From Cellulomonas flavigena DSM 20109 (GTDB lineage Bacteria; Actinomycetota; Actinomycetes; Actinomycetales; Cellulomonadaceae): DNA of 64,000 nucleotides. The notes beneath the pieces are model-generated. The model was not told the origin of the DNA. It made no database searches and saw only the letters and a program-made list of their open reading frames with translations. Each line of letters starts with the position of its first letter. Position 1 is the first letter of the stretch. Position numbers and translations under genes: made by a program. Shown here one piece after another: positions 1,167-30,503 of this stretch. Location of the stretch: contig NC_014151.1 of NCBI RefSeq assembly GCF_000092865.1, positions 2,108,001 to 2,172,000 on the forward strand, written 5' to 3'.

Positions 1167-3107
1167 GTGTCCACACACGGCAATCGAACGGCCGGGCGGC
1201 GCTTGCGCGCCGTCGCGACCGCTGCGACGGCGACGGCGCTCGTCGCGGTGCCGCTGACGCTCGCGAGCACGACCGCGACCGCGGCCGAAGCCCACGTCGA
1301 CAACCCCTACGCCGGCGCCCGGCAGTACGTGAACCCGAACTGGGCAGCGACGGTTGAGAGCGCTGCCACGCGCGCCGAGAGCTCGACCCTCGCCGCGCAG
1401 ATCCGCACGGTGGCCAAGCAGCCCACCGCCGTCTGGATGGACCGCAGCAGCGCCATCACCGGCAACGCCGACGGCCCCGGCCTGAAGTTCCACCTCGACG
1501 AGGCCGTCAAGCAGAAGGCGGCGGGCAGCACGCCGCTCGTCTTCAACCTCGTCATCTACAACCTGCCGGGCCGCGACTGCTTCGCTCTCGCGTCGAACGG
1601 TGAGCTCCCCGCCACCGACGCCGGCATGGAGCGCTACAAGACCGAGTACATCGACCCCATCGTCGACCTGCTCTCGGACCCGAAGTACGCGGACATCCGG
1701 GTCGCGGCGACGATCGAGCCGGACTCGCTCCCGAACCTCATCACGAACATCTCGGAGAGCACCTGCCAGAAGTCCGCGCCGTACTACCGCGAGGGCGTCA
1801 AGTACGCGCTGGACGAGCTGAAGACGCTCGACAACGTGTACACGTACCTCGACGCGGCCCACTCGGGCTGGCTCGGCTGGGAGTCGAACTCGGGCCCGAC
1901 CGCCAAGCTGTTCGCCGAGGTCGCGAAGAGCACCAAGAAGGGCTTCGCGTCGGTCGACGGCTTCGTCACGAACACGGCGAACACCACGCCGCTGGCCGAG
2001 CCGTTCCTCACGGACCCGACCCTCAACGTCGGTGGCGTGCCGGTCCGCTCGGCCAAGTTCTACGAGTGGAACCCGGACTTCGGTGAGCACGCGTGGACGG
2101 CGCAGCTGCACCGTCTGCTCGTCGCCGAGGGCTTCCCGGCCTCGACCGGCATGCTCATCGACACGTCCCGCAACGGCTGGGGCGGCCCGGACCGTCCGAC
2201 CAAGGCGTCGACGAGCACCAACGTCGACACCTACGTCAACGAGTCGCGCATCGACCGCCGCACCCACCGCGGCGCGTGGTGCAACCCGCTGGGCGCCGGC
2301 ATCGGCGAGCTCCCGCAGGCCACGCCGGCCGGTGCGCCGTCCGCGTCGCACCTCGACGCGTACGTCTGGATCAAGCCCCCGGGCGAGTCCGACGGTGCCT
2401 CGAAGGAGATCCCGAACGACGAGGGCAAGAGCTTCGACCGCATGTGCGACCCGACCTACGTGGCGTCCAAGCTGTCGAACAACCTCACGGGTGCCACGCC
2501 CGACGCGCCGGTCTCCGGCAAGTGGTTCGAGGCGCAGTTCATGACGCTGGTCAAGAACGCGTACCCGGTGATCACCCCGGACAACGGCTCGACGCCCACG
2601 CCCACGCCGACCCCGTCGGTCACGCCGTCGCCGACCCCGTCGGTGACCCCGTCCCCCACGCCGTCGGTCACGCCGTCGCCGACCCCGTCGGTCACGCCGT
2701 CCCCCACGCCGTCGGTGACGCCGTCGCCGACCCCGTCCCCGACGGTCAGCCCGACGCCGTCGCCCACCCCGTCGCCGACCCAGAACCCGGGTGGCGTGTG
2801 CACGGTGAGCTACACGGCCAACGCGTGGAACACCGGCTTCACGGCCTCGGTCCGCGTGACCAACAAGGGCGCGGCCCTGTCCAGCTGGAACCTGACGTTC
2901 GACCTGCCGGCCGGCCAGTCCGTCCAGCAGGGCTGGAGCGCCAAGTGGGCCCAGTCGGGCCAGACCGTGACGGTGAGCAACGAGGCGTGGAACGGCAACC
3001 TGGGTGCCAACGCCACGGTGGACATCGGCTTCAACGGCAGCCACAACGGCAACGGCAACAGCGCCAAGCCGACGCAGTTCAAGCTGAACGGCGCAGCCTG
3101 CTCCTGA
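1167..3107 (+). CDS. Secreted GH6 cellobiohydrolase-like cellulase with C-terminal CBM2
   Basis: GTG start preceded by GGAGG at 1156-1160. The 646-residue product has a basic signal peptide (about residues 1-40), a GH6 catalytic domain (about 45-470), a Pro/Thr/Ser linker (about 475-540) and a family-2 cellulose-binding module (about 543-646) with bounding Cys and conserved Trp. GH6 motifs are clear: L-P-G-R-D-C (Asp137), I-E-P-D-S-L-P-N (Asp186, the catalytic acid position) and [10 protein letters not shown] (Asp409). The long loops resemble bacterial exo-acting GH6 enzymes, so cellobiohydrolase is preferred over endoglucanase. It is secreted and cuts cellulose with inversion. Unlike some C. 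fimi relatives, no fibronectin-III repeats separate the catalytic domain and CBM. A GH5 cellulase follows 120 bases downstream. Confidence 0.93.
2590..2790 (+). repeat. Tandem repeat coding the GH6 linker
   Basis: The DNA coding the Pro-Thr-Pro-Ser linker is built from near-identical units of the form ACGCCGTCGCCGACCCCGTC and GGTGACCCCGTCCCCCACG. They encode T-P-S-P-T-P-S-V repeatedly. The first units code T-P-T-P-T-P instead. Nucleotide-level repetition suggests growth by slippage or unequal exchange. Confidence 0.8.
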
Positions 3108-3149
3108 CGGCTGACGAGCCGGGCGTCCTCGGACGCCTGACATGACGCG

Positions 3150-3182
3150 GGGGCCCTCCTGGACATCGTCCGGGAGGGCCCC
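3150..3182 (+). terminator. Hairpin between the GH6 and GH5 genes
   Basis: GGGGCCCTCC (3150-3159) pairs perfectly with GGAGGGCCCC (3173-3182) across a 13-base loop, then TTCGC follows. It sits 43 bases after the GH6 stop. It could end or attenuate GH6 transcription before the GH5 gene, since no separate GH5 promoter is obvious in the short gap. Confidence 0.65.
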
Positions 3183-3227
3183 TTCGCACCGTCCCTCCCC
3201 CTCCCTCCACGTCCCACCAGGAGAATC

Positions 3228-5021
3228 GTGACCACCTCACGTGTGCGCAGGCTGCGCACCGCGCTCGGCAGCGTCCTCGCCGCCGGCGCCCTGACGCTCC
3301 CCCTCGCCCTGTCCGCGGCGCCTGCACAGGCGGCCGACACGCCCGACTGGCTGCACGTCCAGGGCAACAAGATCGTCGACGCCTCCGGCAAGGAGGTGTG
3401 GCTCACCGGCGTGAACTGGTTCGGGTTCAACGCCGACGAGCGCGTCTTCCACGGCCTGTGGTCCGCGAACATGCGGACGCTCACCAAGGGCATGGCCGAC
3501 CGCGGCCTCAACGTCGTGCGCGTGCCGATCTCCGCCGAGCTGATGCTCGAGTGGAAGGCGGGCACGTTCACCAAGCCGAACGTCAACGAGTTCGCCAACC
3601 CCGAGCTCGCCGGGCTCAACAGCCTGCAGATCTTCGAGAAGTTCCTCGAGATGAGTGACGAGTACGGCCTCAAGGTCTTCCTCGACGTCCACTCCGCCGA
3701 GGCGGACAACTCGGGGCACGTCTACCCCGTGTGGTGGAAGGGCGACATCACCACCGAGCACGTCTACGAGGCGTGGGAGTGGGCGGCGGCCCGCTGGAAG
3801 ACGAACGACACGCTCATCGGCGCCGACCTGAAGAACGAGCCGCACGGCACCCAGGGCCAGACCGAGCGCGCCAAGTGGGACGGGTCGACCGACAAGGACA
3901 ACTTCAAGCACTTCGCCGAGACGGCGGCGAAGAAGGTCCTGGCGATCAACCCGAACTGGCTGATCTTCGTCGAGGGCATCGAGATCTACCCGAAGGACGG
4001 CGTGTCCTGGTCCTCGACAGGTCTGACCGACTACCACAACATGTGGTGGGGCGGGAACCTGCGCGGCGTGCGGGACTTCCCGATCGACCTCGGTGCGAAC
4101 CAGGACCAGCTCGTGTACTCCCCGCACGACTACGGGCCGCTCGTGCACCTGCAGCCGTGGTTCAAGGGTGAGTGGAGCCGCGAGACGCTCGAGCGCGACG
4201 TGTGGGACCCGAACTGGCTGTACCTGCACAAGGAGAACACCGCACCGCTGCTCATCGGCGAGTGGGGCGGCTTCATGGACGGCGGGCCCAACGAGAAGTG
4301 GATGGTCGCGCTGCGCGACCTCATCGTCGACCGGCGCCTGAGCCACACGTTCTGGGTGCTCAACCCGAACTCGGGTGACACCGGGGGCCTGCTCGGCTAC
4401 GACTGGGCCACGTGGGACGAGGAGAAGTACGCGCTGCTCAAGCCGGCGCTGTGGCAGGACGGCGGCAAGTTCGTCGGCCTCGACCACGACGTCCCGCTGG
4501 GCGGCGTGGGCAGCACGACGGGCAAGTCGCTGTCCCAGGTCAACGGCACGTTCCCGTCGCCCACCGCGACGGCGACCCCGACGCCGACCCCCTCGGTCAC
4601 GCCGACGCCCACGCCGTCGGTGACGCCGACCCCGACCCCCTCGGTCACGCCGACGCCGACGCCCAGTGCCACGCCGACACCCACGGCGACGCCGACGAGC
4701 GCCGCAGGTGCGTGCACGGTGACGTTCAGCGGCAACGCCTGGAACTCGGGCATGACCGGCGCCGTGCGGCTGACGAACACCGGCAGCACGCTGTCGGGCT
4801 GGACCTTGACGTTCACGGCGCCCGCGGGTGTGACGGTGACCCAGGGCTGGGGCGGCACGTGGTCGCAGTCCGGCTCCACGGTGACGGTCCGCAACGCGGA
4901 CTGGAACGGCACGCTCGCGACGGGCGGCACGGTCGAGATCGGGTTCAACGCCTCGCACGGCGGCACGACGGGCACGCCCTCGGGCTTCGCCGTCAACGGG
5001 GCGTCCTGCGCCACGGCCTGA
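3228..5021 (+). CDS. Secreted GH5 endoglucanase with C-terminal CBM2
   Basis: GTG start with AGGAGA at 3219-3224. The 597 residues divide into a signal peptide (about 1-35, ending A-P-A-Q-A-A), a GH5 barrel (about 36-440), a Pro/Thr linker (about 445-490) and a CBM2 (about 494-597). The acid/base glutamate is in D-L-K-N-E-P-H-G (Glu204) and the nucleophile in L-I-G-E-W-G-G-F (Glu345). G-V-N-W-F-G-F and the N-terminal V-D-A-S-G-K pattern fit bacterial beta-1,4-endoglucanases. It is a retaining enzyme acting on internal cellulose bonds and would act with the upstream GH6 enzyme. The family also holds mannanases and others, so cellulase is likely but substrate range is open. Confidence 0.92.
   Translation: MTTSRVRRLRTALGSVLAAGALTLPLALSAAPAQAADTPDWLHVQGNKIVDASGKEVWLTGVNWFGFNADERVFHGLWSANMRTLTKGMADRGLNVVRVPISAELMLEWKAGTFTKPNVNEFANPELAGLNSLQIFEKFLEMSDEYGLKVFLDVHSAEADNSGHVYPVWWKGDITTEHVYEAWEWAAARWKTNDTLIGADLKNEPHGTQGQTERAKWDGSTDKDNFKHFAETAAKKVLAINPNWLIFVEGIEIYPKDGVSWSSTGLTDYHNMWWGGNLRGVRDFPIDLGANQDQLVYSPHDYGPLVHLQPWFKGEWSRETLERDVWDPNWLYLHKENTAPLLIGEWGGFMDGGPNEKWMVALRDLIVDRRLSHTFWVLNPNSGDTGGLLGYDWATWDEEKYALLKPALWQDGGKFVGLDHDVPLGGVGSTTGKSLSQVNGTFPSPTATATPTPTPSVTPTPTPSVTPTPTPSVTPTPTPSATPTPTATPTSAAGACTVTFSGNAWNSGMTGAVRLTNTGSTLSGWTLTFTAPAGVTVTQGWGGTWSQSGSTVTVRNADWNGTLATGGTVEIGFNASHGGTTGTPSGFAVNGASCATA
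4560..4705 (+). repeat. Tandem repeat coding the GH5 linker
   Basis: Repeated units read CCCTCGGTCACGCCGACGCC or a close variant and encode T-P-T-P-S-V-T-P. The pattern is similar to, but not identical with, the GH6 linker DNA 2 kb upstream. Confidence 0.75.
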
Positions 5022-10581: not shown

Positions 10582-11154
10582 ATGGCCCGTGATCTGCCGA
10601 AGTACACCGTCCCGTCCCTCACCCCCGAGGAGGGCGCGAAGGTGGCGGCGATCCTGCAGGAACGCCTCAACGCGCTCAACGACCTGGCGCTGACGCTCAA
10701 GCACATCCACTGGAACGTGGTCGGCCCGCACTTCATCGCGGTGCACGAGATGATCGACCCGCAGGTCGACGCGGTGCGCGCCATGGTCGACGCGGTGGCG
10801 GAGCGCATCGCGACGTTGGGCGCAGCCCCCGTGGGCACCCCCGGCGCACTGGTCGCCGCCCGGACGTGGGACGACTACTCCATCGGCCGGGCGAGCACGA
10901 GCGAGCACCTCGGTGCGCTCGACGAGGTGTACGTGGGGGTCATCACCGACCACCGCCGCGCCGCCGCCGACGTGGAGGACCTCGACACCGTCACGAACGA
11001 CCTGCTCGTCGGGCACCTGCACGAGCTCGAGCTCTTCCACTGGTTCGTGCGGGCGCACCTGGAGTCCGCGGGCGGTGCGCTGTCGACGGCCGGGGCGTCG
11101 ACCGAGAAGGACGCGGCGAAGGCCGCCGGGGACGCGGCGGCGCACGCGTCGTGA
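10582..11154 (+). CDS. dps: Dps-family DNA starvation / ferritin-like protein
   Basis: ATG start with AAGGAG at 10571-10576. The 190 residues show the Dps four-helix bundle with the ferroxidase-site pattern K-H-I-H-W-N-V-V-G-P-H-F near residue 40 and H-E-M-I-D-P-Q-V-D-A-V. Dps forms a 12-subunit shell that oxidises and stores iron with peroxide and can coat DNA. The C-terminal tail is Ala-rich with few lysines, so DNA binding through the tail is uncertain. The stop overlaps the start of the next gene. The 275-base stretch before it (10307-10581) shows no gene. Confidence 0.93.
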   Translation: MARDLPKYTVPSLTPEEGAKVAAILQERLNALNDLALTLKHIHWNVVGPHFIAVHEMIDPQVDAVRAMVDAVAERIATLGAAPVGTPGALVAARTWDDYSIGRASTSEHLGALDEVYVGVITDHRRAAADVEDLDTVTNDLLVGHLHELELFHWFVRAHLESAGGALSTAGASTEKDAAKAAGDAAAHAS

Positions 11155-12353
11155 GCACCGCGCAGCACGACGGCCCGCGGCCGGACGCGCTCGGCTCACC
11201 CGACGGGGACGGGCTGCGCGCGGGCCGCGTCACGCCTCGCCTCGAGACCTCCGACGGCACACCGGTCGAGCGCCTGCACCTGGCGGCGCGTCTGGAGGAC
11301 CGGTTCGACGCCGCGCTCGCGCAGGTGCTGCGCCGGCGCGGCTGGACCGTGCGGGTCGTGGGGTACGCGGGCTACGGCACGGACGGGCACGTGCGGGTGC
11401 TGGCCCGCACGTTGCTCGCCTCGCCCGCCGTGCGGCAGCGCGACCTGCCCGACGCCGGGGCCGACGCCCAGGCGGGTGAGCGCCCGGCGGACGCGGTGCG
11501 CGGGTGGCGCTCGTTCTTCACCGCGCCCGTGGCCGGTGCACCCGTGGAGATCACCCTCGGTGGGCGCACGCACCGTGTCGAGACCGACCGCGGCGGCTAC
11601 GTCGACGCGTGGCTCGAGGCCGACCTCGCCCCGGGGTGGCACGACGTGACGCTCACGTCCGTGGACGACGCGCGGGCGACCACGCGGGTCGTGGTCGTCG
11701 GCCCGGAGCCGACCGTGGGGATCGTCAGCGACATCGACGACACCGTCATGGTGACGCGCCTGCCGCGTCCGCTCGTGGCGGCGTGGAACGTGTTCGTGCG
11801 GCACGAGAACGCTCGCGAGGCGGTGCCGGGCATGTCGCGCCTGTACCGGGAGATCCGTGCCGCACGGCCGGACTCGCCCGTCGTCTACCTGTCGACCGGC
11901 GCGTGGAACGCGGCCCCGGCCATCGGGCGGTTCCTGCGTCGGCACGACTACCCCGCCGGGCCGCTCCTGCTGACCGACTGGGGGCCGACCAACACGGGCC
12001 TGTTCCGCAGCGGGCAGCGGCACAAGGTCGCGCAGCTGCGCCGCCTGTTCGCCGAGCTCCCGCAGGTGCGGTGGATCCTCGTCGGCGACGACGGGCAGCA
12101 CGACCCGCAGATCTACGCCGGCGCCGTGGCCCGGTTCCCCGAGCGGGTCGAGGCCGTGCTCATCCGGCAGCTCACGGCAGGTGAGCACGTGCTCTCCAGC
12201 GGGCTGCCCGTGACCGCACCGGAGCAGGAGGAGGCCGAGGAGGACGCCGAGGAGGCCCCTGGCGTCGAGGTGCTGCTCGGCGCCGACGGTGAGGAGCTGC
12301 TGCGCCGCGCGCGCCAGAGCGGGCTGGTCGCACCGGCAGGACCCGGCACCTGA
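11151..12353 (+). CDS. APP1-like phosphatase-domain protein (DUF2183)
   Basis: GTG start overlaps the dps stop by four bases. The 400-residue protein has an N-terminal region (about 1-185) with an immunoglobulin-like stretch, then a HAD-like catalytic domain opened by V-S-D-I-D-D-T-V (about 195), the D-x-D-x-T signature of yeast Pah1/App1 phosphatidate phosphatases. Y-L-S-T-G-A-W-N, T-D-W-G-P-T and G-D-D-G-Q-H-D-P complete the fold. The bacterial role is unproven; a lipid phosphatase is the usual guess. No signal peptide is visible. The C-terminus holds an acidic run (E-Q-E-E-A-E-E-D-A-E-E). Confidence 0.85.
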   Translation: MSTAQHDGPRPDALGSPDGDGLRAGRVTPRLETSDGTPVERLHLAARLEDRFDAALAQVLRRRGWTVRVVGYAGYGTDGHVRVLARTLLASPAVRQRDLPDAGADAQAGERPADAVRGWRSFFTAPVAGAPVEITLGGRTHRVETDRGGYVDAWLEADLAPGWHDVTLTSVDDARATTRVVVVGPEPTVGIVSDIDDTVMVTRLPRPLVAAWNVFVRHENAREAVPGMSRLYREIRAARPDSPVVYLSTGAWNAAPAIGRFLRRHDYPAGPLLLTDWGPTNTGLFRSGQRHKVAQLRRLFAELPQVRWILVGDDGQHDPQIYAGAVARFPERVEAVLIRQLTAGEHVLSSGLPVTAPEQEEAEEDAEEAPGVEVLLGADGEELLRRARQSGLVAPAGPGT

Positions 12354-12407: not shown

Positions 12408-12620
12408 TCAGAGGCGCTCGGGGTCGTCCCAGTCGTCGCTCGACGCGATCGCCTCGTCGTCCGGCCGGATCTCCACGGCGTGCAGGGACCGCGGGGCGCG
12501 GGCGGCGTCGCCGCCGGAACGCGCGTCGGCGGCGTCGAGCTCCGCCTGGGCGACCTGCGCCTCCGCGAGGCGGTGCGCTGCGAGGTCGGAGGTCAGGTCA
12601 CGCGCGTGCTGGTGGCTCAT
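12408..12620 (-). CDS. Small acidic hypothetical protein (70 aa)
   Basis: ATG at 12620 opens a 70-residue frame rich in Ala, Asp and Glu with no cysteine or membrane segment. It starts M-S-H-Q-H-A-R-D-L and is predicted largely helical in the first half. I do not recognise a family. It lies between a shared terminator and the GH74 promoter region. It could be real because it fills a gap bounded by terminators, but short frames are common by chance at this GC content. Confidence 0.5.
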   Translation of the reverse strand: MSHQHARDLTSDLAAHRLAEAQVAQAELDAADARSGGDAARAPRSLHAVEIRPDDEAIASSDDWDDPERL

Positions 12621-12743
12621 GGACGAGTTCTACCAACACCGGAAGGCCCGCGCACCCGTTGGCGGGGACCTGCTGGAGGGTTCCGCGCGTGCCGCCCGGC
12701 GTGTCGTGCGCGGACGGGACCACGGTCCCGCGGCCCCGGGACG

Positions 12744-12784
12744 AATCGTTTTGTGTCCTAGGCCGGTGTCGAAGCGCATCGATA
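12744..12784 (+). promoter_or_regulatory. Operator-like motifs before the GH74 gene
   Basis: AATCGTTT (12744-12751) is the exact complement of the AAACGATT core before the GH6 gene. ATCGATA (12778-12784) echoes the TCGATA half-site there. The whole gap 12621-12921 has no supported gene, so this is the likely control region of GH74. Binding by a LacI-type protein is inferred. Confidence 0.4.
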
Positions 12785-12921
12785 GCGTGCGGGCCAGACC
12801 CCTCGGCCCCGGCCGCGATCAGGTCGCCCCGCCCGACGGGACGCTCGCCCGCGGGCACGCCCCCGACGCGCGCCGGCACGCTCCCGCCGGTGACCGCGCG
12901 CGCCCCGCCGAAGGAGCCACC

Positions 12922-15671
12922 GTGCGCCCGTCACCCGCCGTCCCGCTCGCCGCCCTCGCGGCAGCCACCGCCCTCACGGTCGGCGCCCTCGCCGGGCTGC
13001 CCGCGCGGCCGCCGCGCCGGCGCCCGCGGCGGAGAACGGCTACACCTGGGACAACGTCCAGATCGGTGGCGGCGGGTTCGTCCCCGGCATCGTCTACAAC
13101 CAGGGCGAGCCCGGGCTCGTCTACGCCCGAACCGACATCGGCGGTGCGTACCGCCTCGACACCGCGACCCGCCGGTGGGTCCCGCTGCTCGACCACGTCG
13201 GGTGGGACGAGTGGGGCCACACCGGTGTGCTCTCGCTGGCCACCGACGCGCTCGATCCCGACCGCGTCTACGCGGCCGTCGGCACCTACACCAACGAGTG
13301 GGACCCGCAGAACGGCGCCGTCCTGCGCTCCACCGACCGTGGCCGGACGTGGGAGCGGACGATGCTCCCGTTCAAGATCGGCGGCAACATGCCCGGCCGC
13401 GGCATGGGCGAGCGTCTGCAGATCGACCCGAACGACAACCGCGTCCTGTACCTGGGCACCGAGAACGGCAACGGCCTGTGGCGCTCCACGGACAGCGGCG
13501 TGACGTGGTCGAACGTCGCGAGCTTCCCCAACGCGGGCACCTACGCCCAGGACCCGACGTCCGCCAACTCGTACCTCACGCAGAACCAGGGTGTCGTGTG
13601 GGTGACGTTCGACCCGACGTCGGGCACCCGCGGCTCGCGCTCGCGGACGATCTACGTGGGCGTGGCGGACAAGGAGAACAACGTCTACCGCTCGACGGAC
13701 GCCGGCGTGACGTGGGAGCGGGTCCCGGGGCAGCCGACGGGGTTCCTGCCGCACAAGGGCGTGTTCGACGGCGAGAGCGGCCAGCTCTACGTCGCGACGT
13801 CCGACACCGGGGGCCCGTACGACGGGGCCAAGGGCCAGGTGCTGCGGTTCGACGCGGGCAGCGGCACGTGGACCGACGTCTCACCGCTCCCCCTGACGTC
13901 CGACGACCTCTACTACGGGTTCTCGGGCCTGACGATCGACCGGCAGGACCCCGACACGATCATGGTCGCCACGCAGGTCGCCTGGTGGCCGGACGTCATC
14001 TTCTTCCGCTCGACCGACCGCGGTGAGACGTGGTCGAGGATCTGGGACTGGGCCGGCTACCCGGGGCGCACGCTGCGGTACACGATGGACATCTCCGCGA
14101 CGCCGTGGATCACCATGGGCAGGACGCAGGCCGTCGACCCCGACCCGCTGGTCAAGCTGGGCTGGATGACGGAGTCGCTGGAGATCGACCCGTTCGACTC
14201 GGACCGCATGATGTACGGCACCGGGGCGACCGTGTGGGGCACGGACAACCTCACCGACTGGGACTCCGGCGGCACGGTCGACCTCACGATCCGTGCCCTC
14301 GGCATCGAGGAGACCGCGGCGCTCGACCTCGCCGCTCCCCCGGGGCCGGTTGAGCTCTACTCGGGCCTCGGCGACCTCGGCGGGTTCGTGCACGACGACA
14401 TCACCCAGGTGCCCGAGACCATCTACACGCAGCCCGTGCACGGGTCGGTGCGTAGCCTGGACTTCGCGGAGAAGGCGCCCGGGACCGTCGTGCGCGTCGG
14501 TGACGGCGTGGACGGTGAGGTGGAGTCGCACATCGGGGTCACGACGACCGCGGGTGCGACGTGGTGGGCCGGGCAGGAGCCGGACGGCGTGACCGGTCCC
14601 GGTACCGTGGCCGTGTCGGCGGACGGCGGCAGGATCGTCTGGAGCCCCGACGGCACCGGCGTGCACGTGTCGACGACGTTCGCGTCCACGTGGACCGCCT
14701 CGACGGGCGTGCCGCCGCAGGCGCGGGTCGAGGCCGACCGCGTCGACCCGACGACGTTCTACGCGTTCGCCGGTGGGACGTTCTTCACGTCGTCCGACGG
14801 CGGCGCGACGTTCGCCGCCACCACAGGGACCGACTTCCCGACCACGGGCAACGTGCGCTTCGGCGCGGCCCCCGGGAACGCCGGCCACGTGTGGCTCGCC
14901 ACCGAGGACGGCCTGTACCGCTCCACCGACGCGGGGGCGAGCTTCACGCGCGTGCCCGGGTTCGAGGACGGGGGCGCGGTCGGCTTCGGCAAGGCGGCCC
15001 CGGGGGCGTCCTACCCGGCGGTCTACACGACGTCGAGGCGTGACGGCGTCCGCGGCTTCTTCCGCTCGACGGACGGCGGGTCGACGTGGGTCCGCATCAA
15101 CGACGACGAGCACCGGTACGCGTGGACCGGTGCCGCGATCACGGGCGACCCCGACGTGTTCGGCCGCGTCTACGTCGCCACGAACGGGCGCGGGATCGTC
15201 GTCGGCGAGCCGGACGGCGCGCTGCCGACGCCCGGCCCCTCCCCCACGGCGACAGCGACGCCCACGGTCTCGCCGACCCCGTCCCCCACACCCACCGCGG
15301 GCCCGACACCGACCGCCGGCCCGACACCCACGCTCACCGCCACGCCCCCGGCCGCTGCGTGCACCGTGCGGTACAGGACGCACGGCTGGAGCACCGGCTT
15401 CACCGCGTCCCTCCTGCTCACGAACGGCGGGCCGGCCACCCTCGACGGCTGGACCCTGACCCTGACGTACGCCGAGGGCCAGCGGCTCGAGCAGGGCTGG
15501 AGCGCGACGTGGTCGCAGGCGGGCGCCGTGGTGACGGCGACGCACGCGCCGTGGAACAGGACGCTCGCCCCCGGCGCCGGGGTGGAGATCGGGTTCAACG
15601 GCACCCACGCCGGGACCGCGGGGGTACCGCTCCTCGCCGCGCTCGACGGACGGCCCTGCACGGTCTCCTGA
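12922..15671 (+). CDS. Secreted GH74 xyloglucanase with CBM2; signal peptide out of frame
   Basis: GTG 12922 (AAGGAG at 12911-12916) opens a clear signal peptide whose frame leaves the catalytic frame at about 12995-13008. One extra base there would give a normal A-rich cleavage region followed by A-E-N-G-Y-T-W-D-N-V. Downstream the frame is open to 15671. The enzyme has two seven-blade propellers (about 700 residues, many S-T-D-x-G-x-T-W Asp-box-like repeats), a Pro/Thr linker and a CBM2. The catalytic aspartate pair of GH74 fits R-T-D-I-G-G (codon at 13137) and G-D-L-G-G-F (codon at 14373). The only in-frame start after the break is 13227, which would lose the first aspartate and the secretion signal. 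Either the sequence has a one-base error or the gene is broken. Confidence 0.88.
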
Positions 15672-15748: not shown

Positions 15749-15826
15749 GTGATGTGTGACGTAGGTCCCACGAGACAAACATCACATGACTCCGCCGGGA
15801 GAGTTGTCTCGACGTCGACCTAGCAT
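15749..15826 (+). promoter_or_regulatory. Promoter region of mqo with inverted repeat
   Basis: GTGATGT (15749-15755) and ACATCAC (15779-15785) are perfect complements 23 bases apart, each overlapping TGTGA/TCACA-like halves. TAGCAT (15821-15826) fits a TAnnnT -10 and lies 7 bases before GTG 15834, which suggests a leaderless start. No good -35 is seen. Confidence 0.4.
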
Positions 15827-15833
15827 CGCCGAC

Positions 15834-17321
15834 GTGGCAGCGCGAAACCAGGACACCGCAGCCGACGTCGACGTGCTCCTCGTCGGCGGCGGGATCATGA
15901 GCGCGACCCTGGCGTCGCTCATCGGGACGCTCGAGCCGAGCTGGCGCATCGAGGTGCACGAGCGCCTCGACTCCCCGGCGACGGAGAGCTCCAACGCGTG
16001 GAACAACGCCGGCACGGGCCACGCCGCTCTCTGCGAGCTCAACTACACGCCGCAGCGCGCCGACGGCTCCGTCGACGTCACCAAGGCCGTGACGATCAAC
16101 GAGCAGTACGAGCTCTCGCGGGAGCTCTGGCACCACCTCGCCGCCGCCGGCCGCCTGCCCGGGGCCGAGGACGCCGTCACGACGACCCCGCACCTCACGT
16201 TCGTGCGCGGGGCCGAGGACGTCGAGTTCCTGCGCCGGCGCTGGGAGGCGCTGCGCCGGCACCGGCTCTTCGCGGACCTCGAGTTCACCACCGACCGGGC
16301 CGTCATCGCCCGCTGGGCGCCCCTGCTGGTCACCGATCGCCTCGACGACGAGCCCGTCGCCGCGACGCGCGCGACCTGGGGCACCGACGTCGACTTCGGC
16401 TCGCTCACACGCGCCATGCTCGCCGACGCCGTCACGCGCGGCGCGACCGTGCACACCAGCAGCGAGGTCACCCGCCTGCGGCGGCTGCGGGACGGCCGCT
16501 GGCGCGTCACCGTCGCCGACCGCCGCTGGAACGGCAACCCGCCGCGTACGCTCACGGCCCGGTTCGTGTTCGTCGGCGCCGGGGGCGGCGCGCTGCACCT
16601 GCTGCAGCGCTCGCGGATCAAGGAGATCCGCGGCTACGCCGGCTTCCCGATCAGCGGCCAGTTCCTGCGGACCACCAACCCCGGGCTCGTGGCGCAGCAC
16701 CGCGCCAAGGTGTACGGCAAGGCCGCGATCGGTGCCCCGCCGATGTCGGTGCCGCACCTCGACGCACGCGTCGTGGACGGCGACCAGGCACTGATGTTCG
16801 GCCCCTACGCGGGCTGGAGCATGAAGTTCCTCAAGCGGGGCTCGTGGACGGACCTGCTGCGCTCGGTGCGCCCGGGCAACCTCGTGCCGATGATCGCCGT
16901 CGGCCTGCGCAACATGAGCCTGGTCACCTACCTGATCCGTGAGGTCACGGCGGACGACGCCGCGCGCCTGCGGTCGCTGCGGTCGTACATGCCGTCGGCG
17001 GACCCGCGCGACTGGGAGCTCATCACGGCCGGGCAGCGCGTGCAGGTCATCAAGCGCGGCAAGGGCGGCGGCGTGCTCGAGTTCGGCACCGAGCTCGTGA
17101 CCTCGCAGGACGGCTCGATCGCCGGGCTGCTCGGCGCCTCGCCGGGCGCGTCGACCGCGGTCGCCACGATGCTCGACCTCCTGGAGCGGTGCTTCCCCGA
17201 GCGGGCGGACGCGTGGCGGCCCCAGCTCCAGCAGCTCATGCCGAGCATGGGCGGCGGTGCGTGGGACGCAGCGCTCGAGCAGCAGCTCGTGGACGACGGG
17301 ACGCTCACGGGCGGACACTGA
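15834..17321 (+). CDS. mqo: Malate:quinone oxidoreductase
   Basis: FAD-dependent peripheral membrane enzyme oxidising malate to oxaloacetate and passing electrons to quinone. The 495-residue frame begins near V-D-V-L-L-V-G-G-G-I-M-S-A, the FAD-binding fingerprint. Family marks include N-A-W-N-N-A-G-T-G-H-A-A-L-C-E-L-N-Y-T-P, F-G-P-Y-A-G-W-S-M-K and G-A-S-P-G-A-S-T-A-V. An ATG at 15786 is in frame but has no ribosome site and overlaps an inverted repeat, so GTG 15834, seven bases after a -10-like hexamer, is preferred. It works beside the succinate dehydrogenase found at 21884-25367. Confidence 0.95.
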   Translation: MAARNQDTAADVDVLLVGGGIMSATLASLIGTLEPSWRIEVHERLDSPATESSNAWNNAGTGHAALCELNYTPQRADGSVDVTKAVTINEQYELSRELWHHLAAAGRLPGAEDAVTTTPHLTFVRGAEDVEFLRRRWEALRRHRLFADLEFTTDRAVIARWAPLLVTDRLDDEPVAATRATWGTDVDFGSLTRAMLADAVTRGATVHTSSEVTRLRRLRDGRWRVTVADRRWNGNPPRTLTARFVFVGAGGGALHLLQRSRIKEIRGYAGFPISGQFLRTTNPGLVAQHRAKVYGKAAIGAPPMSVPHLDARVVDGDQALMFGPYAGWSMKFLKRGSWTDLLRSVRPGNLVPMIAVGLRNMSLVTYLIREVTADDAARLRSLRSYMPSADPRDWELITAGQRVQVIKRGKGGGVLEFGTELVTSQDGSIAGLLGASPGASTAVATMLDLLERCFPERADAWRPQLQQLMPSMGGGAWDAALEQQLVDDGTLTGGH

Positions 17322-27904: not shown

Positions 27905-30082
27905 TCATCCGGTACGCCCCGAGCGGTACTCCCACGCGGTCTGCGCCGGGGGCACGTAGCTCGGCGCGTCCGGCTCTCCCCCGCCTCCGGTCACCTCCTG
28001 CACCGGGTCCCCGGCGGCGCGCACCTCGTCGCACAGTGCGGCGACGTGCGGCCAGAACTGCTCCTCGTCGTGCCAGTAACCCGCGTGGCTGACCACCGGC
28101 GGGGCCTGTTGCCCGAGGACGTGCGTGTGCCCGCGAGGGTCGTGCAGCAGCACCTCACGGTCGGCGAGCCGCACCGACGCACGCCCTCCGACCTCCTGGC
28201 CCACGTAGTCCGTCCGGTAGTAGAGGTTGGTCCACCGCACCGCCCCCACCCCGGCGCGCGGCACGTCCGGGCGCGCGAGCGCGTCGAGGAGCTCGTCGCT
28301 CACCACGGCCGGGAAGGCCCACCGGTAGAGCTTGCCCAGCGGGGATCCGAAGGTGACGAGCCCGGTCACGCCCCCGAGGCTCGCGCGCCCCTCGCAGGGC
28401 CGCGCGAGCGCCGCGGCGGCGAGCACGCTGCCCTGCGAGTGCGCCAGCAGCACCACGGCGTCACCGGTGTCCTGCAGGTACCAGACCCGGCGCAGCAGCT
28501 CGGGTACGGCGCGCTCGGTGTACGAGGGCGGCGCGAACGGGTGGAACGCACGCGGAAAGAAGCACCCGACGTCGAACGCGACCCCGAGGCCCCGCCGCAG
28601 CTGCCGCTGCCGGAACGAGACCTGCAGCACGACGAGCAGCGCGAGCGGGAGCAGCGCCGCGATCCGCGAGCCCAGCTCGACGCGAGCCGCGAGCTCGGTG
28701 CCCGCCACGCGGGCGAGCAGCACGAGGACGCCGACGCCGACGCCGAGCACCGCCACGGCGACCACGAGGCCGGCCACGCTGACGACCGCGCCGAGCATGA
28801 CGGTCACCGCGGCGGTCATGGCGACGGCGCTCATCACGACGGGCCCACAGGCCGGGAACACCTTCTGCCGGGAGTGGTGCCCGCGGTGCCGGAGCCATGC
28901 CGCGAGCTGCTCGAGCACGAGCGTCGCAGCGAGCAGCACGCCCCCGACCACGACGACCTGCACGACGTCCTGCAGGACGAGCAGCGGTCCCGGCGGCACG
29001 TCGACCCGCGGGCGCGCGGGGGGGCAGGACGTCCCGCGGCCCGAGCGTCCCGGCCGCCAGGGCCAGCGCCGCACCTGCCACTGCCACCCACAGCAGCAGG
29101 TGGGACGGGGACACGCCGCGGACGCGGTCGTCCGGCGCGGCGTCGGCGTCCCGCGCCCGGACGGGACGACGACGGCCCGAGGCCCGCCGCCGCAGGGCCA
29201 CCCGCCGGGGCACGTCGTCGGAGCAGATCCCCACCAGCACCAGCGCGAGCACTCCCGCACCCACGACGGCGGCGGCGAGCGCGAGGACCGCACCGAGGTC
29301 TGCTGCGGGGCGCTCGCGATGCAGTGCGCGGACCGGCAGCGCGACGACCACGGCAACCACCGCGAGCGCCGCCGACAGGTGGAGATCCGACAGGTGCTCG
29401 TGCCAGCGCGCGCCCGTCCAGAACTGCTCGTGCCGCAGCCCGCCCGGGAGTGCCGCGGGGGTGTGCAGCGCGCCCCCGTCGACGCGTGCCGATCCGACCG
29501 AGGGCGGCTCGACGCTCTCGTACCGGGCACGGGTCGAGCGCGCGAGCAGGTGGAACGTGAGGGCGACGAGACCCGCCAGGGCCCCGCCCACGGCGAGCCG
29601 GGCGCCGGGGCGGTCGACCGGGGCCAGGAACGTCACGACGTCGCCCAGGGGCCTGCGGCCACGCACGCGTCCTGACCCCAGCACTGGTAGGCCAGGACGT
29701 CGACGGTCAGCATGAGGACGAGGGCCGAGGCGACCAGCGTCAGGGCGAGCGCGGTGAGCCGGGCAGCTACGCGGAACGCCCGGGTCGTCGGCGCCCGCGC
29801 GGCCTCTGCGGCCGCGTCGACCTCGGGCAGTCGGCCCATCCAGCCGGCCATGTTCATGAGCATTGAGGGGATCAGCAGGGTCCACAGCGCCCGCGAGCGC
29901 GCCCGGGAGGTCAGCCCGCCCCAGGAGTACGCCTCGCGGTGACGGCCGGCCGTGTCGGAGGTGCGGAAGAACCCCGCGAGCCGGTCCCCGGCGACCTGGA
30001 CCGGTGTCGGGTCGCCCAGCAGAGCCTCCGGCGGGGTGCCGCCCACGCCGTGGATCCGGATCTCGGTGAGTCGGACGGGCAT
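27905..30082 (-). pseudogene. Membrane alpha/beta-hydrolase-like protein with two frameshifts
   Basis: One protein of about 725 residues is spread over three frames. Frame A, ATG 30082 to 29633, gives M-P-V-R-L-T-E-I-R-I-H-G-V-G-G-T-P and a membrane segment. It stops at 29633, but one more C at the four-C run (29648-29651) continues it into frame B (about 29647-29025, hydrophobic segments). Removing one C from the seven-C run (29018-29024) returns it to the first frame, which runs to 27905. The C-terminal part has L-L-A-H-S-Q-G-S-V, a lipase-type G/H-x-S-x-G nucleophile elbow. Several membrane segments precede it. Both breaks lie in homopolymers, so sequence error is as likely as decay. The function of the family is unknown. 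Confidence 0.75.
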
Positions 30083-30137
30083 GTCCCTCCCCCTCCCGCC
30101 CACGGTCTGCCGCGGTGCGGCGGTCGGGTGGGCCCGA

Positions 30138-30199
30138 CCCCGTGGGGATGCTCCACACCGGCCGTCTGCGCCGGCCGGTCGGCGCGCCGCCCCACGGGG
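30138..30199. repeat. Long inverted repeat upstream of the frameshifted hydrolase
   Basis: CCCCGTGGGG (30138-30147) and CCCCACGGGG (30190-30199) are perfect complements; between them CACCGGCCG and CCGGCCGGT also pair. It could fold as a branched hairpin in the 272-base gap between the tRNA and the hydrolase gene. No gene is seen there. Confidence 0.5.
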
Positions 30200-30302
30200 G
30201 TGGATCCAGGCGTACGCGCCGTCGGGACACCGGGTCAAGGGCCGCAGCACCGGTGTGCCTCCCGGGGCAGGCAACGTGCGCGAGGACCCGCACGACGACG
30301 CA

Positions 30303-30338
30303 CGAAGGCCCGCTCCGCGACGGCGGAGCGGGCCTTCG
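30303..30338 (-). terminator. Terminator hairpin of tRNA-Pro
   Basis: CGAAGGCCCGCTCCG (30303-30317) pairs perfectly with CGGAGCGGGCCTTCG (30324-30338). It begins 17 bases past the 3' end of the minus-strand tRNA. The outer end closes with A/T pairs. Confidence 0.75.
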
Positions 30339-30354
30339 TCCCTGCGCGTTCCTG

Positions 30355-30428
<74 letters not shown>

Positions 30429-30503
30429 ATGGCTTCCGCAGAAGCCTCGAAGACTCTACCGCACCCCGCGCGCCTGCTCGGACACCATTGCCGTCGGTCG
30501 TCG

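Follow-up and report, generated by a model that had tools for sequence, protein, structure and literature searches.

The locus considered here raises the question of whether a xyloglucanase gene whose signal peptide and catalytic domain are read in different frames is broken in the living bacterium or only in its deposited sequence. It lies in a stretch of 64,000 nucleotides of the Cellulomonas flavigena DSM 20109 chromosome (the window, whose numbering is used unless genome positions are specified). We take ATCC 482, DSM 20109 and 134T to be one strain.

Two reading frames at the 5′ end of a GH74-CBM2 gene

Translation in the frame of the GTG at 12922 yields a putative signal peptide, VRPSPAVPLAALAAATALTVGALAGLPAR, and then arginine- and proline-rich nonsense, which continues to the end of the unshifted product at 13503 (approximately 193 residues in all); this frame has no stop codon in 12600-13400. 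The beginning of the enzyme, AAAPAPAAENGYTWDNV..., is found in the neighbouring frame. There, with codons starting at positions divisible by 3, the translation reads ...AAAAPAPAAENGYTWDNVQIGGGGFVPGIVYNQ...RTDIGG, the last upstream stop lies at 12891, and the frame is open from 12894 to the stop at 15671. Between 12894 and 13227 this catalytic frame contains no ATG, GTG or TTG, the window copy having 51 open upstream codons with 0 starts among them. The switch of frame in third-position G+C falls at about 12985-13015, and a codon HMM that makes no use of homology, its training set being long ORFs from this C. flavigena genome, places the start of catalytic-frame coding at 13004. Because this model labels the short signal peptide N (not coding), it dates only that onset. 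In the deposited sequence, the signal peptide is thus not in frame with the enzyme, the two frames differing by one, with a net shift at the break of -1 modulo 3. Since the relatives differ in length at this point, the alignment does not show precisely where the lesion lies or how large it is.

A division of signal peptide and catalytic domain between two frames was the core of the original prediction, and it is confirmed by the translations, the map of stops and starts, the third-position G+C and the HMM. Equally correct was the assertion that the first start in the catalytic frame, at 13227, would forfeit both the signal peptide and the RTDIGG aspartate, which is encoded upstream at 13134-13136. 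The further proposal that one added base would join the frames holds for the existence and location of the break; a single added base is not the sole arithmetic option, as the shift is known modulo 3.

Beyond the break, the gene is a single open frame, with no internal stops over the 724-residue GH74 region and none of the further lesions expected of a decaying pseudogene. The match to the solved xyloglucanase 5fkr spans the whole catalytic region (E 1.8e-298, residues 10-734), and a domain search of the catalytic-frame protein returned BNR and Sortilin-Vps10 matches. Both aspartate motifs (RTDIGG and LGDxGG) are retained, the position of the second aspartate being D in 5fkr and A in chain 5fkt. 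We take these aspartates to have the catalytic roles assigned to them, and the matched solved chains, which are named xyloglucanase, to be members of GH74. The identification as a Cellulomonas GH74 enzyme, made originally from the letters of the window, was right, and this gene is the only GH74 match in the C. flavigena genome.

Orthologues, flanking sequence and rate of change

A DNA search gave full-length GH74 matches in 27 of 60 genus genomes, that of C. flavigena included, and none in the other 33. From the other 26 matching genomes, 24 loci were fetched (L130-L153), some of the same species as loci in a wider comparison for which 80 of 102 relatives were kept. In every one of the 24 genus orthologues, an ATG that has a ribosome site stands in frame with the enzyme, so that the comparison with other Cellulomonas GH74 genes originally called for returned signal and enzyme in one frame in 24/24 and the two-frame layout in 0/24. 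Among the 80 wider loci, a crude test places a start and a hydrophobic segment in frame ahead of the enzyme in 77; at the remaining three (L009, L011 and L024) the enzyme continues in frame from a long ORF upstream.

The order APP1 - GH74 - Mqo recurs in the genus, with APP1 upstream at 17 of 24 loci and Mqo downstream at 19 of 24, as judged from flanks of only about 1.5 kb and sometimes shorter. Approximately 140 bases before the GH74 start lies the conserved element TCGAAGCGCATCGATA, which has a single exact copy in the genome and one further site at 2 mismatches. No regulon can be derived for an element with one exact genomic copy; it is perhaps a promoter or operator, and maybe specific to this gene. 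The locus is best read as the single, vertically inherited GH74-CBM2 xyloglucanase of C. flavigena 134T, for which activity on xyloglucan is predicted. Elsewhere in the window, at 1167-5021, two cellulase genes, one GH6-CBM2 and one GH5-CBM2, are adjacent to each other some 8 kb upstream of GH74; judging from the part of PMC3377646 available, these are probably its Cfla_1896 and Cfla_1897.

Table 1. Features of the GH74 locus in window coordinates. L001 (strain B6), L003 (C. phragmiteti) and L134 are relatives; P0004 is a metagenome protein.
Feature	Position	Strand	Basis or remark
APP1 phosphatase gene, upstream neighbour, syntenic	10866..12353	+	PF09949
Conserved upstream element TCGAAGCGCATCGATA, near-palindrome	12769..12784	+	5 of 6 aligned rows agree fully, the window among them; L134 differs by one change
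Ribosome-binding site GAAGGAG	12910..12916	+	read in sequence; same motif before ATG in L001 and L003
GTG start of signal peptide	12922..12924	+	matches ATG position of relatives
Putative Sec-type signal peptide, about 28 codons	12922..13005	+	by eye; resembles start of P0004
34-nt G/C-only run, frame changes (net -1)	12999..13032	+	third-position G+C, HMM
GH74-CBM2 xyloglucanase, catalytic frame	13008..15671	+	ORF, domain matches, structure alignment
GH74 catalytic region	13035..15209	+	aligned with solved xyloglucanase 5fkr, query residues 10-734
RTDIGG aspartate, first catalytic Asp	13134..13136	+	sequence, 5fkr alignment
First catalytic-frame ATG/GTG/TTG (GTG)	13227..13229	+	product would lose signal peptide and first Asp
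LGDLGGF aspartate, second catalytic Asp	14373..14375	+	aligned with D of 5fkr
CBM2 cellulose-binding module	15360..15659	+	PF00553, E 1.1e-25
Malate:quinone oxidoreductase (Mqo) gene, downstream neighbour, syntenic	15786..17321	+	PF06039

The closest protein, P0004 (921 aa), is 87% identical to the window protein, and 92% identical over 721 aligned catalytic columns. The protein collection searched listed no copy from C. flavigena, and a control search with the neighbouring GH5 gene likewise gave none by name or at 100% (best 93%), so absence from that collection carries no weight. When the window copy is paired with each of five relatives, dN/dS (0.187-0.244) is slightly higher than among the relatives themselves (0.132-0.219; 0.093 for the close pair L001-L002). 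The window copy also has more private amino-acid changes than the relatives in all 20 tests, with chi2 above 3.84 in 16, these tests sharing sequences and so not being independent. The intact P0004 shows the same excess (chi2 above 3.84 in 9 of 16 tests), and private changes in the window copy and P0004 stand at 21:21 with outgroups L001 and L003. Because P0004 shares the excess and the two are balanced in this way, most of the rate increase seems to be older than the split between them. Compared directly with P0004, the window copy gives chi2 below 1 with 6 of 7 outgroups; with the other, L137, it has 24 private changes against 12 (chi2 4.0). There is thus no clear sign, in the sequences compared, of a speed-up of the window copy since it split from P0004, in a test of relaxed constraint that has no power against a very recent break.

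The G/C-only run and the origin of the break

The break falls in or beside a 34-base run composed only of G and C (12999-13032). A scan of 2.8 of the 4.12 Mb of the genome with the codon HMM yielded 2,271 coding segments of at least 300 nt. Runs of at least 34 nt number 17 in this 2.8 Mb, approximately 0.05% of sampled coding positions are no more than 30 nt away from one, and a mutation with an equal chance of falling anywhere in the 2.75-kb gene would land in the run in about 1.2% of cases, mutational hot spots not being allowed for. The GH74 segment ranks first of the 2,271 for the distance from coding onset to first usable start (223 nt), the next-largest gaps being 220 and 106 nt, and only three segments exceed 100 nt.

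The same scan yielded 969 out-of-frame same-strand neighbours and, among these, 15 candidate internal frame breaks; an earlier, too strict test for frame switches had returned 0/104 and 0/147 pairs without a nearby start. Long G/C-only runs are only weakly over-represented near the 15 candidates (mean 11.6 vs 9.9, resampling p 0.045), and 2 of the 15 have a run of at least 20 nt, against an expectation of 2.3%. As this signal is marginal, we do not claim an assembly-wide habit of error at G/C-only runs. Runs of at least 30 nt occur 37 times in the 2.8 Mb, 22 of them inside one unbroken coding frame, which indicates that such runs are usually read correctly; among the other 15, 12 lie outside or at the edge of the coding signal. 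The assembly is therefore not generally broken at G/C-only runs, and a true mutation stays in play.

Three further sites emerged as possible frame breaks. On the minus strand at about 28995-29030 of the window, a second likely break lies between the open frames 27905-29632 and 28461-30455. The coding signal changes frame there at a G/C-only run of 21 nt that has a C7 homopolymer, and the stop of the upstream frame comes 545 nt later; neither frame has a Pfam match. A frame-switch candidate at genome position ~145834, minus strand (L096), joins a membrane-like N-terminal part to a lipase-like C-terminal part, as labelled by eye. The second-ranked missing start (220 nt), at genome position ~2397359, minus strand (L233), may mark another broken 5′ end.

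The most probable account is, in our judgement, that this is an ordinary GH74 gene and that the net -1 break is an error of the 2010 Sanger/454/Illumina assembly, arising at the 34-nt G/C-only run. The living cell would then read one frame from GTG 12922, the signal peptide would direct the enzyme through Sec and be removed, and the catalytic domain would cut xyloglucan while CBM2 anchors it to cellulose. Occurrence of the break at one of only 17 such runs in 2.8 Mb, together with the lack of any other lesion, points to error, and the retention of the start, ribosome site, upstream element, catalytic motifs and CBM2, the dN/dS values against five relatives, the 21:21 balance with P0004 and the single frame of all 24 genus orthologues count in the same direction. 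The assembly combined 9.1x Sanger and 56x 454 coverage with Illumina polishing, at a stated error rate below 1 in 100,000 (PMC3035266, in the part available), a rate that allows up to about 41 errors. The same part of that report gives the 134T chromosome as 4,123,179 bases with 57 pseudogenes. The good stated quality of this polished assembly is itself an argument against error and for a recent true loss, in which the type strain would carry a short indel where the signal peptide ends and secrete no xyloglucanase, the remainder of the gene not yet having decayed. Such a loss is plausible because GH74 is patchy in the genus, and it is favoured, as error is disfavoured, by the correct reading of most long G/C-only runs and the absence of GH74 from the portion of the culture-fluid study of C. 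flavigena available to us (PMC4780727). The excess of private changes over the relatives, which intact P0004 also shows, favours loss. The weakness of the frame-switch enrichment, the slightly raised dN/dS, the 24:12 count with L137 and a hairpin energy at the junction that matches its composition count against error. Against loss stand the lack of a second lesion, the absence of clear acceleration since P0004, and the position of the lesion, which falls at one of the longest G/C-only runs but at no homopolymer of at least 4. The original prediction had offered sequence error and genuine mutation side by side; both accounts stand, with the G/C-only run and the intact remainder of the gene favouring error. 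We regard loss as a serious but less likely account, the two having been ranked by judgement and not by computation.

The programmed -1 frameshift that had also been proposed fared poorly. Such a ribosomal shift, or transcriptional slippage, could join the frames, given that both are open in the overlap and that a shift anywhere between 12922 and about 13035 gives the joined protein. However, 12915-13060 contains no slippery heptamer of the form X XXY YYZ, 12901-13080 contains no homopolymer of at least 4 except the CCCC at 12903, the unshifted frame runs on through nonsense with no early stop, and the hairpin at the junction has the strength to be expected from its composition (z -0.18; energy -15.8 for the folded segment that starts at 12997). 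An apparently special hairpin was set aside, as the best of 40 offsets at the site (-20.0) had been compared with single segments (83/39,996 as low), a comparison that flatters the site. A shift is, moreover, needed by none of the relatives examined (24/24 genus orthologues in frame, and 77 of the 80 wider loci with an in-frame start by the crude test), and we consider it very improbable. Similarly slender is the prospect that the junction works as a genuine switch, on/off or recoding, in which replication or translation slippage at the G/C-only run would set xyloglucanase export; were it true, a plant-wall enzyme would be secreted in a phase-variable or programmed manner. Least credible of all is an enzyme that begins at GTG 13227, or at another catalytic-frame start, and works inside the cell. 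The 13227 codon is the first ordinary start of the catalytic frame and opens 814 codons, but the product would lack the RTDIGG aspartate, the coding signal begins 223 nt earlier, the largest such gap in the scan, and the peptide encoded upstream in the catalytic frame has, by eye, no hydrophobic core; a start at 13227 was accordingly rejected.

Reported absence of GH74 and comparison with known enzymes

A single GH74-CBM2 xyloglucanase has been described in C. fimi, and likewise one in C. gilvus, 'whereas C. flavigena has none' (PMC3544764, in the text available). In the parts of a second study available, C. flavigena scores 0 for GH74 both in the genome table and in the table of detected enzymes, its secretome spectra having been searched against the complete genome and the NCBI nr of May 2013 (PMC4780727). 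Among the titles listed in a literature search, none was on a C. flavigena GH74. As far as the available text of the two studies permits, it was probably the frame break that led both to credit C. flavigena with no GH74. Since the genome carries a GH74-CBM2 gene complete but for the break, the reported lack may be an artefact, and the contrast in xyloglucan strategy drawn with C. fimi and with C. gilvus might reduce to one short stretch of sequence; the C. flavigena secretome data may hold unassigned GH74 peptides. Were the break real instead, the type strain would have lost a secreted enzyme only recently.

With 5fkr, among the solved GH74 xyloglucanases, the C. flavigena enzyme shares the aligned catalytic region and both aspartate motifs; the solved enzymes are unbroken. 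P0004, known here as a protein alone, starts MRSSPVVPLTALGAAAALTTGALAGLPASAAP, a signal peptide similar to that of the window, and is intact where the window copy is broken. The loci of strain B6 (L001) and C. phragmiteti (L003) have the same catalytic motifs, start site, upstream element and neighbouring genes, and differ in reading signal peptide and enzyme in one frame, where the window copy is split. GH74 enzymes of B6 and C. fimi, cited here by strain and species and not by sequence, have been found in culture fluid (PMC8195749, in the part available).
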